The notes under the pieces are model-generated. The model saw only the letters and a program-made list of their open reading frames with translations, did no database searches and was not told the origin of the DNA. From NCBI GenBank assembly GCA_937921595.1, contig CAKZTD010000092.1, positions 1 to 43,853 on the forward strand: a stretch of 43,853 bases of DNA, written 5' to 3'. The position numbers were made by a program, and so were the translations under genes. Position 1 is the first letter of the stretch, and each line of letters begins with the position of its first letter. This document shows positions 4,894-27,076 of this stretch, piece after piece. This stretch comes from an uncultured Saprospiraceae bacterium (GTDB lineage: Bacteria; Bacteroidota; Bacteroidia; Chitinophagales; Saprospiraceae).

Positions 4894-5111
4894 AAAATTG
4901 ATTTTAAGGACTATGAAAGAGATAGGTCGTCGCCTCAAAAATAAGTGGATTAATTTATAGATAAAAGAGGAAAGGAGGGAATCTTGGTAGTAAGGCGACA
5001 AAGGGGAAGTTAAGGAGCAAACAAATGTTGAAATAAGGAAAGGACTGTATTACAAAGAAAATGTATAGGACTTAGCTGATTTTTAAAAAAATGAAGAAGA
5101 AATAAAAAATT

Positions 5112-20064: not shown

Positions 20065-20736
20065 GTGAACCCATTACAACTTCTCATTGTAGACGATCAT
20101 CCTATTTTTAGAAAAGGACTAAAATGCTTATTGGAGCCTTGTGAAGAAATAGGAAAAGTAATCATTGCTGAAAACTTCGAAGCCATTAATGTTATCTGTC
20201 AATTCGAAAAAATTGACTTGGTGATTATGGATATAAATCTTGGAAGCCATTGTGGTGCTGAACTAACACAGCGTTTAAAACGCTTCTTCCCTAAGATAAA
20301 AATCATCGCTTGTTCTACTCACCAAGAAAAAGAGTATATCTTTAAAATGATGGAAGCCGGAGCTTCTGGGTATCTATTGAAAGATATAGATATCGAAGAG
20401 TTGAAAGATGCTATCCAGCAAGTGAGCAAGGGAAAAACTTTTTTGTCATCTTCTATCACAAAAGGCTTGACTAGTTTTGATAATCAAAAACAGAACACCA
20501 AGGCTTTGGAAGATAAACTAACCATACGTGAAATAGAGATTTTGACTTTTATCATCCGAGATGAATTGAGTAATAAAGAAATCGCTAACCGACTTTTTAT
20601 CAGTCCTCGAACGGTGGAAACTCATAAACGTAATCTTATTCAAAAACTTCAGGTTAAAAATACAGTCGGTCTTGCTAAGTTCTATTTTGAAAACAATTTG
20701 TCAATTACAGTAAACTACGGGATTCCCTTAGCTTAA
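20065..20736 (+). CDS. NarL/LuxR-family response regulator, probable curli regulator (CsgD-like position)
   Basis: 223 residues with a GTG start (no in-frame ATG nearby). The receiver domain (about 4-120) has the acidic pair D10-D11, phospho-acceptor D56 (IMDINLG) and K in GYLLKDIDIEEL. A LuxR-type HTH follows at about 152-212 (LTIREIEILTFIIRDELSNKEIA, SPRTVETHKRNLIQKL). Unlike E. coli CsgD, the receiver residues are complete, so phosphorylation is likely; no histidine kinase is in the window. The gene sits 242 bases upstream of the curlin gene on the same strand. Control of the amyloid operon is inferred from position and shared palindromes. Confidence 0.88.
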   Translation: MNPLQLLIVDDHPIFRKGLKCLLEPCEEIGKVIIAENFEAINVICQFEKIDLVIMDINLGSHCGAELTQRLKRFFPKIKIIACSTHQEKEYIFKMMEAGASGYLLKDIDIEELKDAIQQVSKGKTFLSSSITKGLTSFDNQKQNTKALEDKLTIREIEILTFIIRDELSNKEIANRLFISPRTVETHKRNLIQKLQVKNTVGLAKFYFENNLSITVNYGIPLA

Positions 20737-21973: not shown

Positions 21974-22043
21974 AGAAGGAGGAATGTCCGAAGATGAATT
22001 CAGTTTATGTTTTTTTAAATATAAAAGAACTCATTTTCGGACA
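21974..22043 (+). promoter_or_regulatory. Strong Shine-Dalgarno and hairpin in the csgB leader
   Basis: AGAAGGAGG at 21974-21982 is unusually strong for this genome. It is 11 bases before an in-frame ATG at 21994, 27 codons upstream of the start chosen for the csgB-like gene. TGTCCGAAGATGA (21985-21997) and TCATTTTCGGACA (22031-22043) form a 13-bp stem with one G-T pair that covers the 21994 start. A 32-codon frame from 21984 also ends at 22082, overlapping the 22075 ATG. Confidence 0.4.
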
Positions 22044-22074
22044 ATTCAGGTTTTTATTAGTATCTTTTACATTC

Positions 22075-22638
22075 ATGAATAAATTACTGAAAATATCTTT
22101 ATTTGTTTTACTACTTTGTAGTACTCAGTTTTTGTTTGCTCAACAAGACCTATCAGAAAGCGATTTGATATTAACCCCGAATCAGCTTTTAGAAGAAGAT
22201 CTAATCAGTGATCAAAACAATGTCCTAATCCAACAGATAGGAAACAAAAACAATGTTGAAATTATTCAGCAACAAACGGATGCAAGTAACTTAGCTAAAG
22301 TATTACAATCGGGAGATTTTAATTTGATCCAAATATTTCAGGCAGGAGGGAACAACCAAGTGGCTGTTATACAAAATGGAAATAATAATACCTATTCACT
22401 TGACTTAGAAGGTACAGATAGCGATATTGCAGTTGTTCAGAAAGGAAGTGACAATTCCATTATTCAGAAGTTGATCAACACCGATAATATTGATGTTGAA
22501 TTTTTGCAAGAAGGAAATAACAATTCTATTGAACATGTTATTGAGGGTTTGACAACACGAGATTATAAAATCTATCAAATTGGTGATGGAATGAAAGTTA
22601 TCGTTCACCAATCTGCTGTTGGAATACCTAATAACTAA
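22075..22638 (+). CDS. Second curlin-repeat protein (possible CsgB-like nucleator)
   Basis: 187 residues from the ATG at 22075, which gives a normal signal peptide (MNKLLKISLFVLLLC ... FLFAQ). Starting at 21994 would add 27 hydrophobic residues. After an acidic stretch (DLSESDLILTPNQLLEEDL), residues about 45-180 hold roughly 12 degenerate half-repeats such as QIGNKNNV, QNGNNNTY, QKGSDNSI and QEGNNNSI. The ladder is less regular and more charged than in the gene upstream, as in nucleator CsgB versus CsgA. The gene lies 55 bases before csgE. The nucleator role is inferred; a minor fibre subunit is the alternative. Confidence 0.75.
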   Translation: MNKLLKISLFVLLLCSTQFLFAQQDLSESDLILTPNQLLEEDLISDQNNVLIQQIGNKNNVEIIQQQTDASNLAKVLQSGDFNLIQIFQAGGNNQVAVIQNGNNNTYSLDLEGTDSDIAVVQKGSDNSIIQKLINTDNIDVEFLQEGNNNSIEHVIEGLTTRDYKIYQIGDGMKVIVHQSAVGIPNN

Positions 22639-22693: not shown

Positions 22694-23500
22694 ATGCTAA
22701 GATGGTACTGTTTGCTATTTGTAATTTTTGGAACCTATGCAATTGGAATTGCTCAAGGCAGTGATCTTAATGCTTGGTTTGATTTGCAAAGAAGCGAATC
22801 GGGGCAAGCAGTGATTAAAGGAATGGTCAAAAATAAATCAAACAAAACATTAGCCTATTCTTACTCTATGCGATTGACGAAAGCCGGCCCCTCCGGAAAA
22901 GCAATCAGCACTCAATCCGGTAGTTTTACCTTGCTACCTAAAGAAGAAAAAATTACCTCAGAAATTTCAATTAATCTTGGAGCAACGGCTACCTTCGAAG
23001 TAGCTTTAAAAATATTTGACGATGAAGGAATTGTCGCAGATGAGAAGATGTTAAGTGATGAAAAATTTATTAGCGATTTTCAAAAATTACTCCCTCAAAA
23101 AACAAGCCCAGATAAGATTGTAGCAAATCCAACTGTTGTTAAAAAAACAAGAAATACAGCTACCGATGCTATTGAAATTGAAGGTTTAATCATTGATGAA
23201 ACCAGGTCGAAAACTGGAAGAGACTATTATGAATTTTTCTATGGAAAATGGATCGCTCCACAAGGTGTTTCTGATTTTACGATTACAATCAAAGAATTAC
23301 CAGCAAGGGGTAGGGGAGCAAGAATTTCAGTCGAAGTCAATGGCAATCTACTGATACAGAGAATGCTACAGCCAAGATTAGATGTGATAGAACTACTGGC
23401 AGAGCAATCTGTAAATGCTGTTAAAAAATATTTAGTGGATAACGAAAAATTAAAATCAGATCTCGAAGCAGGAGATCAAAAAGGTAGTGGAGTTTATTAA
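22694..23500 (+). CDS. csgE: CsgE curli secretion adaptor with N-terminal CsgH/CsgC-like domain
   Basis: 268 residues, about twice the length of E. coli CsgE. A signal peptide (1-20) is followed at about 26-118 by WFDLQRSESGQAVIKGMV, SYSMRLTKAGPSGKAISTQSGSF and FEVALKIFDDEGIVADEKM. This is the strand pattern of CsgH, the anti-amyloid chaperone of alphaproteobacterial curli systems and a structural relative of CsgC. The CsgC CxC motif is absent. Residues 158-250 are a clear CsgE domain (IEGLIIDETRSKTGRDYYE, FTITIKELPARGRGARISV, then LLIQRMLQPRLD). CsgE caps the periplasmic mouth of CsgG and passes subunits to it. The fusion would couple anti-aggregation and delivery in one periplasmic protein. 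Confidence 0.88.
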   Translation: MLRWYCLLFVIFGTYAIGIAQGSDLNAWFDLQRSESGQAVIKGMVKNKSNKTLAYSYSMRLTKAGPSGKAISTQSGSFTLLPKEEKITSEISINLGATATFEVALKIFDDEGIVADEKMLSDEKFISDFQKLLPQKTSPDKIVANPTVVKKTRNTATDAIEIEGLIIDETRSKTGRDYYEFFYGKWIAPQGVSDFTITIKELPARGRGARISVEVNGNLLIQRMLQPRLDVIELLAEQSVNAVKKYLVDNEKLKSDLEAGDQKGSGVY

Positions 23501-23533: not shown

Positions 23534-23944
23534 ATGAAAAAAATAACAACCTTCGCATTTTTACTTTTCTTTAGCTTCAATTTTTGTGCAGCTCAAGACT
23601 TTGTTTACAAACCAAAAAATCCTGCTTTTGGAGGTGATACTTTCAATTACAATTGGTTGCTGAGTAGTGCTCAAACTCAAAACTTAATTGAGGATCCTGA
23701 CCTTTTAGAACGAACCCAAGGAAGTACTTTAGATAATTTTACAGAAAGCCTTAATCGTCAATTATTGAGTCAACTTTCAAGGCAATTGATCACTGCTCAG
23801 TTTGGCGAAAATGGCCTCGAAAATGGCAACTATACTGTCGGTGATTTTCAAATTGATATAAGCTCATCAATTGAAGGATTGGTGATCTCTATTTTGGATA
23901 CTGGTGCAGGTGAACAGACTCAAGTGATTATCCCTTATTTCTAA
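23534..23944 (+). CDS. csgF: CsgF curli assembly factor
   Basis: 136 residues with a signal peptide (1-20, ending CAAQ). The mature N-terminus DFVYKPKNPAFGG matches the CsgF segment (FRNPNFGG in E. coli) that inserts into the CsgG channel. WLLSSAQTQN and TLDNFTESLNRQLLSQL follow, as in the family, and the C-terminus is beta-rich. CsgF sits at the outside of the CsgG pore and couples secretion to nucleation by CsgB. It starts 34 bases after csgE and is clearly part of the operon. Confidence 0.93.
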   Translation: MKKITTFAFLLFFSFNFCAAQDFVYKPKNPAFGGDTFNYNWLLSSAQTQNLIEDPDLLERTQGSTLDNFTESLNRQLLSQLSRQLITAQFGENGLENGNYTVGDFQIDISSSIEGLVISILDTGAGEQTQVIIPYF

Positions 23945-24035: not shown

Positions 24036-24168
24036 CATTGTATTTATATTTCCCTCCTTTAAATACACACAATACCAGCCTTAAAATCATATTTACATTT
24101 TTTAATCATGTTTTGATACATGTAGACTCGTCTGTATATGACAATCTACTGAATTGAATACTTGTCCT

Positions 24169-25590
24169 ATGAACAAAACAATTCGCTTAATATGCCTTCT
24201 GGCTATTGTGATCAGTATGTTTTCCTGCGGGAAGATCATGCAAACTCCGCGTTCTAGTAAAGCACGTCTTGGAGAAGTCACATCGACAACAGAAGATCTG
24301 AAAAATTTGCCACCTCCAAAGGAAAAGGTAGTGGTTGCAGTCTATAAATTCAGAGACCAAACCGGTCAATATAAACCTACAGAAAATGGATCGAGTTGGT
24401 CTACTGCCGTTACCCAAGGAGCAACGACCATACTAATCAAAGCATTGGAAGAGAGCAATTGGTTTATCCCGATTGAGAGAGAAAACGTGGGAAACCTTTT
24501 GAATGAAAGAAAAATTATCCGTTCAAGTAGAGCACAATACAATGCAGGTGCCGGAGGAGAACAATTGTTGCCTGCTTTGCTTTATGCAGGAGTCATTCTC
24601 GAAGGAGGGATTATTTCTTATGATGCAAATATTATTACTGGAGGAGCTGGTCTTAGATATTTTGGTGCCGGAGGAAGCGGTCAATACCGACAGGATCGGG
24701 TGACAGTTTATCTTCGTGCCGTTTCGACAAGTAATGGGAAAGTTTTAAAAACAGTTTATACTTCAAAAACGATACTATCTCAATCGGTAGATGTGGGCTT
24801 GTTTCGATTTGTAAAGTTCAGTCGATTGTTGGAAGCAGAGACTGGATTTACTTACAATGAACCTTCCGAAATGGCTGTGACAGAAGCGATAGAAAAAGCA
24901 GTACAGAGTCTAATCATCGAAGGAGTATTTGATAATCTTTGGGAATTAGAAGAACCTAGAATGTTGGTTGATCAATCAATCTTGGATTATAAAAAAGAAA
25001 AAGAACTCATTCCTCAGACAGATATTTTTGGTAAAAGATTAGACAACCGTCGAAGTAAAATTGCACTCAATCTCAGCTCTTCATCTTTGCAATATAAAGG
25101 AGATTATCCAGAACCTGTTTTAAGGACAGGCGCTGAAATAGGATTGACTTATTCGCAATCTCCTAGCTTTGGATTTAATCTGAATTTTGGAATGAGCCAG
25201 TTGGCTACTAAGCAGTTCTATACTTCTGATGTTAGTTATCTAGATATAAGTGGAAGTTATTTGTTATTACCTTTTGATATGTTTACGCCTTATTTTTCTG
25301 CAGGTCTTGGATTGATCACAGCAAACGAAGGATCACGTCTTGATTTTTCAAATAAAATATATCCAAAAACTCAAGTTGGTTTTGGCTTAGAGTATTTAAT
25401 TAATAATCGAATTGGTATCAAAGCAGGAGTAGACTATAATTATATTTTTAGTGATGATTTTGATGAAGTAGCTCAAGGAAAATATAATGACTTTTTCTGG
25501 AGAGGAAATGTTGGCTTAAGTTTTTATTTTGGTAAAAAATTGGAGAGTTCTCGAAAATTTAATTTTAATGAGAAAGGAAATGATTTTTAA
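24169..25590 (+). CDS. csgG: CsgG curli secretion channel with C-terminal barrel-like extension
   Basis: 473 residues from the ATG at 24169 (a TTG 15 bases upstream was not used). It is a lipoprotein with lipobox Cys at residue 20 (ISMFSC). Residues about 45-265 match CsgG throughout: FRDQTGQYKP, STAVTQGAT, SNWFIPIERENVGNLLNERK, GGAGLRYFGAGGSGQYRQD, TSKTIL, FRFVKFSRLLEAETGFTYNEP. CsgG forms the nonameric outer-membrane pore for curli subunits. The E. coli protein is 277 residues; here about 190 more follow (about 285-473), with strands such as GAEIGLTYSQSPSFGFNLNFG and WRGNVGLSFYFG that resemble an outer-membrane barrel. The constriction loop differs from E. coli: KPTENGSSWSTAV in place of KPYPASNFSTAV. 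Confidence 0.93.
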   Translation: MNKTIRLICLLAIVISMFSCGKIMQTPRSSKARLGEVTSTTEDLKNLPPPKEKVVVAVYKFRDQTGQYKPTENGSSWSTAVTQGATTILIKALEESNWFIPIERENVGNLLNERKIIRSSRAQYNAGAGGEQLLPALLYAGVILEGGIISYDANIITGGAGLRYFGAGGSGQYRQDRVTVYLRAVSTSNGKVLKTVYTSKTILSQSVDVGLFRFVKFSRLLEAETGFTYNEPSEMAVTEAIEKAVQSLIIEGVFDNLWELEEPRMLVDQSILDYKKEKELIPQTDIFGKRLDNRRSKIALNLSSSSLQYKGDYPEPVLRTGAEIGLTYSQSPSFGFNLNFGMSQLATKQFYTSDVSYLDISGSYLLLPFDMFTPYFSAGLGLITANEGSRLDFSNKIYPKTQVGFGLEYLINNRIGIKAGVDYNYIFSDDFDEVAQGKYNDFFWRGNVGLSFYFGKKLESSRKFNFNEKGNDF

Positions 25591-27076
25591 ATTTGGAAAG
25601 TGGACAAAAGGGGCGATTTTATTATTACTCGTCTCTTTGATGGCTTGTCAGGAAGACACGATTATTCCAGAACAGTTTGGTTCTGTATTTGGTGAAGTCT
25701 TGATGAAGGATGAAAATGTTGCTATTGAAATGGCAACGATTTCTACGAATCCTCCAACGAGTTCTGTTTTTTCAGATGCCGATGGAAGATTTGTTTTAGA
25801 AAATATTCCAGAAGGAACCTATTCGCTACGAGCTGAGCAAAGTGGTTTTCTAACTCAAGTTTCAACAGTTACCGTTTTTGCAAATCAGGATGCTAGTGTA
25901 ATCGTAAGAATGGCGAAAGATTCTTTAGAAAATTATCCGCCAACCATTCCTATGAATATTTTTCCTACTGATGGAATGGAAAATCTAGGTGTTGATTTGA
26001 CTTTGGAATGGTCAGCTAGTGATCAAGATGAAGAGGATGTTTTGAGCTATGAAGTTTTACTTTTTAATTCAGATATGACTCAAAGCATAAGCCTGATCAG
26101 TAATAGTATTGATAGTACATTTGAACTGACTGATTTAGATTTTGGAACAAATTATTTCTGGCAAGTAATCGTAACTGATGATCGAAATGATCCAGTTTAT
26201 AGTGAAGTTTGGGGATTTAAGACGGAAGAATTTCCTGATCATCGATTTGTTTTTGCTCGCTCTGAAAATGGAAAATATGATATCTTTTCTTCTGATATAG
26301 ATGGTAATGCGATTCAACTAACAGATAACACAGGAAGCAATTGGCGTCCTCGTATGAATCCTAATCGAACGAAAATCGCGTATATTTCTAATGCCGGAAT
26401 TGATCCTCAAATCTATGTCATGGATCGTGACGGAAATAATGTAACAATGGTTACGAGCATCGCCATTAGTGGTGCCAATCAATTCGAACTAGATTTCTGT
26501 TGGTCACCAGATGGGACTCGGATTTTGTACATGGAAAATGCTAAACTTTTTACCATCAATGCAGATGGAACTGGGCTAACGAACTTTGTACAAGCACCGT
26601 TCGGTTTTACTTTTGCAGAATGTGATTGGACACCACAAGGAAATAAAATTGCTGCTCGGACAGTAGGTATTGATGTTTACGATTCCAATATGTTTACTTT
26701 TGATGAACAAGGAAATTATACGCTTCAGTTTTTCTCAGATATCCCAGGAGGAACAGGTGGGCCTATGTTTTCAATTGATGGAGATGAGGCATTATATACT
26801 CATGATATTTCTGGATTTGAAGCACCAGATGGTCGACAACTTGATGCACATATTTTTACAAAAAATCTAAATACCAATCAGATCATAGATCTCTCTTTTG
26901 AGAAGCCAGCAGGGACCAATGATTTCGATCCTCGATATTCTCCTGATGGTAGTAAGATCATTTTTATGAATACCAATAATGATGGAATTTCTCCAAAGAG
27001 TATTTGGATGATGAGTGTGGATGGAACAGACCGAGAATTACTTTTCGAAAATGCAGAAATGCCGGAGTGGCGATAG
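25568..27076 (+). CDS. Lipoprotein with carboxypeptidase-regulatory-like, FnIII-like and TolB-like propeller domains; probable curli accessory
   Basis: 502 residues from the ATG at 25568, overlapping csgG by 23 bases; the ATG at 25580 is a second option and still overlaps. Translational coupling to csgG is likely. A lipobox (LVSLMAC) gives Cys at about residue 27. Domains in order: a carboxypeptidase-regulatory-like sandwich (about 35-115: GSVFGEVLMKDENVAIEMA, DGRFVLENIPEGTYSLRA), a FnIII-like domain (about 120-220: FPTDGMENLGVDLTLEWSA, TNYFWQVIVTDD), and a six-bladed PD40/TolB-like propeller (about 225-502; SDIDGNAIQLTDN, CWSPDGTRILYMEN, YSPDGSKIIFMNTNNDG). It is probably outer-membrane anchored near CsgG. 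A role in fibre export or anchoring is inference from coupling only. Confidence 0.75.
   Translation: MRKEMIFKFGKWTKGAILLLLVSLMACQEDTIIPEQFGSVFGEVLMKDENVAIEMATISTNPPTSSVFSDADGRFVLENIPEGTYSLRAEQSGFLTQVSTVTVFANQDASVIVRMAKDSLENYPPTIPMNIFPTDGMENLGVDLTLEWSASDQDEEDVLSYEVLLFNSDMTQSISLISNSIDSTFELTDLDFGTNYFWQVIVTDDRNDPVYSEVWGFKTEEFPDHRFVFARSENGKYDIFSSDIDGNAIQLTDNTGSNWRPRMNPNRTKIAYISNAGIDPQIYVMDRDGNNVTMVTSIAISGANQFELDFCWSPDGTRILYMENAKLFTINADGTGLTNFVQAPFGFTFAECDWTPQGNKIAARTVGIDVYDSNMFTFDEQGNYTLQFFSDIPGGTGGPMFSIDGDEALYTHDISGFEAPDGRQLDAHIFTKNLNTNQIIDLSFEKPAGTNDFDPRYSPDGSKIIFMNTNNDGISPKSIWMMSVDGTDRELLFENAEMPEWR

Follow-up and report, generated by a model that had tools for sequence, protein, structure and literature searches.

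A CsgC/CsgH-like domain fused to CsgE in the curli operon of a Saprospiraceae bacterium

The gene discussed here occupies positions 22694 to 23500 of contig CAKZTD010000092.1 from an uncultured Saprospiraceae bacterium of the phylum Bacteroidota (assembly GCA_937921595.1). The contig was analysed as one stretch of 43,853 nucleotides, called the window below. The product of this gene ends in a CsgE domain, which is preceded by an N-terminal domain that, judging from profiles and predicted fold, is a cysteine-less relative of CsgC and CsgH and a homologue of these inhibitors of amyloid nucleation. A reading made from the sequence only had proposed such a fusion, and this interpretation is supported by the analysis presented here.

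The csgH-csgE gene and its operon

The fusion gene belongs to an operon-like row on a single strand, in the order curlin, curlin, csgH-csgE, csgF and csgG. The features of the gene and its neighbours are the following:

22694..23500, + strand: csgH-csgE fusion gene, 268 amino acids plus stop, one open frame
22694..22756, + strand: putative signal peptide, residues 1-21, read by eye; helix 2-15 in the predicted model
22766..23053, + strand: CsgC/CsgH-like seven-stranded domain, residues 25-120, from profile match and predicted strands
23093..23179, + strand: basic, disordered linker, residues 134-162, with a predicted local distance difference test score (pLDDT) under 50
23138..23151, + strand: run of seven A (A7) in the linker (GTT AAA AAA ACA), at the position of the A10-G run in relatives of another genus
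23177..23497, + strand: CsgE domain, residues 162-268, Pfam PF10627
20979..21824, + strand: curlin subunit of CsgA/CsgB type, 281 amino acids; Curlin_rpt PF07012, E 2.4e-20, 8 stretches; mature isoelectric point (pI) 4.05
21994..22638, + strand: second curlin-repeat protein, 214 amino acids; Pfam Curlin_rpt, E 2.6e-9, 2 stretches; mature pI 4.05
23534..23944, + strand: csgF, 136 amino acids; PF10614, E 3.9e-40
24154..25590, + strand: csgG, 478 amino acids; PF03783, E 1.7e-65

The C-terminal half of the fusion protein is indeed a CsgE, as had been read from the sequence. It matches PF10627 at residues 162-254 with 65.5 bits (E 5.8e-18), well over the cut-off of 25, and its predicted fold agrees with that of the CsgE structure 2na4, which is also found at E 3.7e-6 in a single-sequence search of the PDB with the whole protein. 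Against the enterobacterial CsgE equivalog model NF007701, the protein reaches 47.5 bits, which is under the cut-off of 137. In contrast to the fusion, the CsgE of E. coli (PF10627, PDB 2na4) has 129 amino acids and lacks the N-terminal domain, and CsgC is encoded there by a separate gene of the csgBAC operon; the earlier statement to this effect is thus correct. Between the two domains of the fusion, residues 123-160 have a pI of 9.70, and the length of the linker differs strongly among relatives, which fits a flexible tether. The start of the fusion gene at 22694 adjoins the end of the second curlin gene at 22638, and the gene thus has the curlin neighbour that is characteristic of csgC and csgH.

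Ancestry of the N-terminal domain

The N-terminal half had been proposed to carry a CsgH/CsgC-like domain at residues 22-125, and this assignment holds, with an extent of about 25-120. The domain passes the NCBIfam CsgH model NF041112 at residues 37-114 with 44.2 bits (E 1.5e-11; cut-off 35), and with 47.1 bits when the domain is taken alone. With a profile made from 12 N-terminal domains of families f4 and f5, from which the window domain and E. coli CsgC were excluded, the window domain reaches 39.8 bits (E 9.8e-11), and the score of E. coli CsgC is 30.8 bits (E 6.2e-8); with a profile made only from Saprospiraceae domains, E. coli CsgC has just 12.9 bits (E 0.021). Shuffled controls reach at most 8.7 and 8.9 bits against the two profiles. 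Thus, the resemblance of the domain to CsgC and CsgH is well beyond chance. The source profiles hold 12 N-terminal domains from Flavobacteriia and 17 from Saprospiraceae, with the window domain and E. coli CsgC absent from both. Matches of such profiles to their own members prove nothing, and the counts of CsgH in the phylum and among 30 aligned N-terminal domains, given below, rest on the public NF041112 model.

When the profile of these 30 domains is compared with all PDB sequences, the three best matches are CsgC 2xsk (E 1e-4), CsgC 2y2t (1.1e-4) and CsgH 2n59 (5.3e-4), and the fourth appears only at E 0.28. The domain therefore does not hit an unrelated family alone, an outcome that the sequence-only reading had named as fatal to its proposal. 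Individually, 26 of the 30 domains are recognized by NF041112 and 16 by the CsgC model NF007507 (E up to 0.01). The predicted structure has seven strands (residues 25-33, 39-47, 53-65, 68-80, 85-93, 100-108 and 113-120) arranged in an immunoglobulin-like (Ig-like) sandwich, which is the fold that had been anticipated. With this model, CsgH 2n59 is the best match in Foldseek, and CsgC 2xsk is the best in VIA-align, where it is tied with unrelated Ig-like domains.

With the CsgH of Alphaproteobacteria (NF041112, PDB 2n59), then, the window domain shares a profile score above the cut-off, a seven-stranded fold, a place in a curli operon and adjoining curlin genes. Unlike that protein, it is fused to CsgE, is free of cysteine, does not keep the charges that have been mutagenised and shows a lower pI gap to the curlins. 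The CsgC of Enterobacterales (NF007507, PDB 2xsk and 2y2t) differs from it as well, being encoded by its own gene within the csgBAC operon and having a CxC motif.

Several observations weigh against the domain being an active inhibitor or even a member of these families. In structure comparison, unrelated proteins with Ig-like folds score almost as high as CsgC and CsgH. The Pfam CsgH model PF21112 gives 18.8 bits at residues 36-102 (E 0.0016), under its gathering cut-off of 27, and the single-sequence PDB search with the fusion protein reaches CsgH 2n59 only at E 1. Moreover, cysteine is absent from residues 22-122 of the window protein and from all 30 aligned N-terminal domains. In the accessible part of the paper that defines the families (Taylor 2016; PMC4838910), CsgH has two cysteines distant in sequence and CsgC a CxC motif; the N-terminal domain has neither the distant pair nor the CxC and, consequently, does not qualify as a CsgH when the published disulphide is taken as the defining feature. 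A relative in the family of the window organism (G479, L183:1480-2256) has, by eye, a CxC pair at the start of the domain and another cysteine close to its end, in contrast to the other domains, which are free of cysteine.

The charges point in the same direction. A passage of that paper describes CsgC and CsgH as having a pI more than 2 units above that of the curlin (PMC4838910). The window domain has a pI of 5.44 against 4.05 for both curlins, a gap of 1.4 units; in E. coli, the values are 6.80 for CsgC and 4.51 for CsgA, a gap of 2.3. The 30 aligned domains have a median pI of 6.51, and 13 of them carry a net positive charge. In an alignment read by eye, the residues K32, D36, R45 and K47 of the CsgH 'Quad' mutant, as given in the accessible text of PMC4838910, correspond to S58, T62, I71 and T73 of the window protein, and CsgH K37 to K63. 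Judging from these residues and the pI gap, the published electrostatic signature of the inhibitors is only weakly present.

The genome of the window organism also has a second csg locus (contig C77, L003:2064-11528), with csgG, csgF, csgE and curlin-like proteins. Its CsgE bears an N-terminal domain of similar length, which matches our profiles only marginally (E 0.0014 and 0.00061) and NF041112 not at all at E up to 1; this domain is not claimed here as a CsgH, and no second match over the NF041112 cut-off was found in the genome.

Some other features of these loci may be mentioned. The csgG product (24154-25590) has about 200 extra C-terminal residues that weakly resemble an outer-membrane barrel (OMP_b-brl, 27.3 bits, below the cut-off of 28.7). 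In both csg loci of the genome, csgG is followed by a lipoprotein-like protein that looks FN3- or TolB-like by eye and may belong to the system (25529-27076; L003:2823-4346), and a LuxR-type response regulator, also recognized by eye, stands at the edge (20065-20736; L003:2064-2792) as a possible counterpart of CsgD. A promoter scan was uninformative (20 promoter-like sites against 19.4 expected), and a tRNA scan of the DNA found none. A viral origin of the fusion protein was discarded, as a comparison with viral contigs yielded 12 pattern matches, none of which was a relative.

Distribution of the fusion across the phylum

The sequence-only reading had suggested a survey of the CsgE proteins of Bacteroidota for the N-terminal extension, and such a survey shows it to be widely conserved. 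In an evenly drawn sample of 394 genomes of the phylum, csgE is present in 41, and a search with NF041112 at E up to 0.001 finds matches in 22 genomes. The match lies within the csgE frame in 13 of the 41 csgE genomes, in a frame adjoining csgE in 2 (G316 and G324), and in a separate csgH in 6, where frames of 125-243 amino acids lie 4-7 kb away from csgE and share its strand (G166, G385, G195, G344, G309 and G231); in the other 20, there is no match. One further match, in an 836-amino-acid frame of a genome without csgE (G019), was taken as chance. When the CsgE proteins of the six genomes with a separate csgH were searched with profiles of the CsgH domain, no significant match was found. Thus, fused and separate csgH are mutually exclusive within this sample.

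In the family of the window organism, 19 of 150 genomes have csgE, with 20 genes in total. A profile built without members of this family detects the CsgH-like domain in 14 of the 20, and a joint profile in 16; the N-terminal domains of two genomes (G037 and G158) are not detected by our own profiles. The closest named relatives of the fusion protein are encoded in metagenome-assembled genomes (MAGs) of Saprospiraceae, the best at 51% identity. Several proteins of this family (for example, L174 and L087) are identical to ones from records named as Saprospiraceae, so that the window most likely belongs there. In family f5, csgE occurs in 78 of 349 genomes, spread over 57 genera. Nearly all of these frames (76/78) are 238-405 amino acids long, the short ones being those of G316 (115) and G1043 (152, truncated where its contig ends). 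Of the 78, the 27 newly fetched loci were examined in sequence, and all 27 carry the CsgH domain within the csgE frame, L275 only a part of it.

Other domains may take the same place. A LysM domain is found on 8 of 44 CsgE proteins (L040 and other loci of family f24), and an OmpA domain on the CsgE of two Paludibacter MAGs (L128:514-1557 and L133:1739-2725); as far as these sequences tell, the CsgE N-terminus is a modular slot. LysM and OmpA domains bind peptidoglycan. Thus, the slot may serve to position CsgE, a further point against inhibition, and the N-terminal domain of the window protein could be of CsgC/CsgH ancestry but have turned into an anchor or spacer that places CsgE, its anti-amyloid activity lost. 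The loss of the known functional charges, the small pI gap and the strong divergence of the domains, with not one invariant column among the 30 aligned, would all agree with this reading. Nevertheless, 26 of these 30 domains still match the CsgH model, and a separate csgH is present where the fused domain is absent, as expected if either form does the same task. In addition, the reading frame in 35 genomes of a related genus (see below) would free the domain, and this would be hard to understand if it served solely as an anchor. A role as an anchor is, on balance, unlikely, and the domain is more probably an inhibitor brought to CsgE.

A recoding candidate in a related genus and the proposed mechanism

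The related genus, g20, is a large genus of family f5 in the same class as the window organism and, judging from its size and relatives, is probably Flavobacterium. It has csgE in 72 of 299 genomes; the CsgH and CsgE halves are in one frame in 37 of them and split across frames in 35. In all 35 split genomes, the junction is a run of ten A, neither more nor fewer, with G as the next base (loci L190-L243 with L066; for example, L066 about 4953-4965), the offset between the frames of the two halves is identical although the flanking codons differ, and the codons read AAA AAA AAG, with this G in third position. The run is preceded by G in 31 genomes and by C in 4. Its length has been kept at ten through much divergence. 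In the CsgH domains, only 116 of 753 lysine codons are AAG. Apart from the junctions, the 272,357 nucleotides of these loci contain 9 runs with at least ten A or T. In another set of loci, with 179 csgE frames, a run of at least nine A is found in five loci only (L035, L036, L066, L067 and L071), where L035 and L066, as well as L036 and L067, are from the same genomes. In 7 of the 37 fused g20 genes (L215, L217, L218, L221, L222, L235 and L240), the linker has an in-frame run of nine to eleven A (A9-A11), and slippage there would release CsgH alone.

A run of this kind is reminiscent of dnaX. In E. coli, A AAA AAG reportedly causes a frameshift in this gene, and in Thermus a run of nine A is said to cause transcriptional slippage. 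The g20 site is similar in that a run of A and then G, in the frame AAA AAA AAG, stands at the junction of two domains and could lead to two products, one short and one long. It differs in that no downstream RNA fold was found and in that it is a candidate site seen only in relatives rather than in the window gene. Zero pairs were predicted by RNAalifold on the 35 sequences downstream of the run, so that a frameshift stimulated by a hairpin is unsupported. Because of the run length, transcriptional slippage is somewhat favoured over -1 frameshifting.

It seems reasonably probable that the A10-G run of g20 is a programmed slippage or frameshift site. It would yield free CsgH and CsgH-CsgE in a set ratio and couple the restraint of amyloid to export capacity, and the window gene would be the always-fused form of the same device. 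Recoding in the window gene itself was rejected, since it has only A7 and a single frame is open throughout.

Alternatively, csgH and csgE of the 35 genomes may plainly be two genes, or csgE may be decaying, or the run may be an assembly error, all without recoding. In favour of this, one to four ATG, GTG or TTG are found in the CsgE frame before the conserved core in 17 of the 35 genomes and near-cognate codons in all 35; the other 18, nevertheless, have no ATG, GTG or TTG there. The split CsgE frames, of 112-129 amino acids, start at or near the run and thus leave no room for a signal peptide. Decay is difficult to reconcile with the conservation of CsgE in the split genomes, which have some of the best CsgE scores of the genus. 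As to an assembly error, homopolymers are error-prone and every sequence comes from an assembly. Yet the ten A, the following G and the frame offset are constant in 35/35 genomes with varying flanking codons, and GA10G is present 1-5 times per whole genome in the split genomes tested, with the csg junction among its occurrences in 8/8; at the csg junction of a fused genome with A11 (G375), it is absent. On the other hand, no conserved RNA fold follows the run. A tree of the 72 CsgE domains, which rests on few columns and leaves many forks unresolved, requires a minimum of 3 changes from one state to the other, split or fused, and the split trait is clustered on it, so that the 35 genomes are not independent events. 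Taken together, an explanation without recoding is improbable, even more so than an anchoring role of the N-terminal domain, and programmed recoding is preferred. It is far less probable still that the N-terminal domain is an unrelated Ig-like domain matching CsgH by chance or at the level of fold, since sequence profiles pick out CsgC and CsgH with shuffled controls under 9 bits, and the gene sits in a csg operon.

Considering the identity of its domains, its operon, its wide conservation and the separate csgH found where the fusion is absent, the window gene most likely encodes a two-domain periplasmic chaperone, in which an inhibitor domain of CsgC/CsgH type is tethered to CsgE at the CsgG pore. 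From the accessible parts of two papers, it is known that CsgC and CsgH block nucleation at a substoichiometric ratio in E. coli and R. palustris, and that CsgE is inhibitory at 1:1 and forms a 9:9 complex with CsgG, of which it is the cap (PMC4838910, PMC5135000). By analogy with these proteins, and by its homology to the inhibitors, the N-terminal domain would inhibit nucleation and prevent the acidic curlin subunits from folding while they are in the periplasm. The flexible linker would tie it to CsgE, which would assemble into a nine-fold adaptor and cap the CsgG pore on its periplasmic side. Up to nine inhibitor domains may thus be brought by the fusion to the export gate, where subunits would be handed over locally, whereas E. 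coli relies on a free CsgC. In the genomes with the candidate recoding site, an excess of free inhibitor would be produced, together with a set share of the fused gate protein.

Parts of this picture were already known. In the accessible text of a 2012 survey, csgC is absent from all genera of Bacteroidetes (PMC3521004), and a Bacteroidetes sub-family of CsgH was reported in 2016, with its location not stated in the corresponding part of that paper (PMC4838910). The word 'fused' is absent from the accessible parts of PMC3521004, PMC4838910 and PMC5135000. Neither the CsgE fusion nor a csgE recoding site was found in the open PMC literature, which is not proof of absence; both the CsgH-CsgE fusion and the proposed recoding of csgE are apparently new with respect to these sources. 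For part of the phylum, the fusion would be a simple answer to the absence of csgC, as the inhibitor would be built into CsgE. If the proposal for g20 is true, a chaperone system for functional amyloid has a switch based on recoding in the A10-G run. Furthermore, the two domains occur fused, as separate proteins and apparently in recoded form, so that nature itself provides the means to test whether inhibition of amyloid has to be physically coupled to export.
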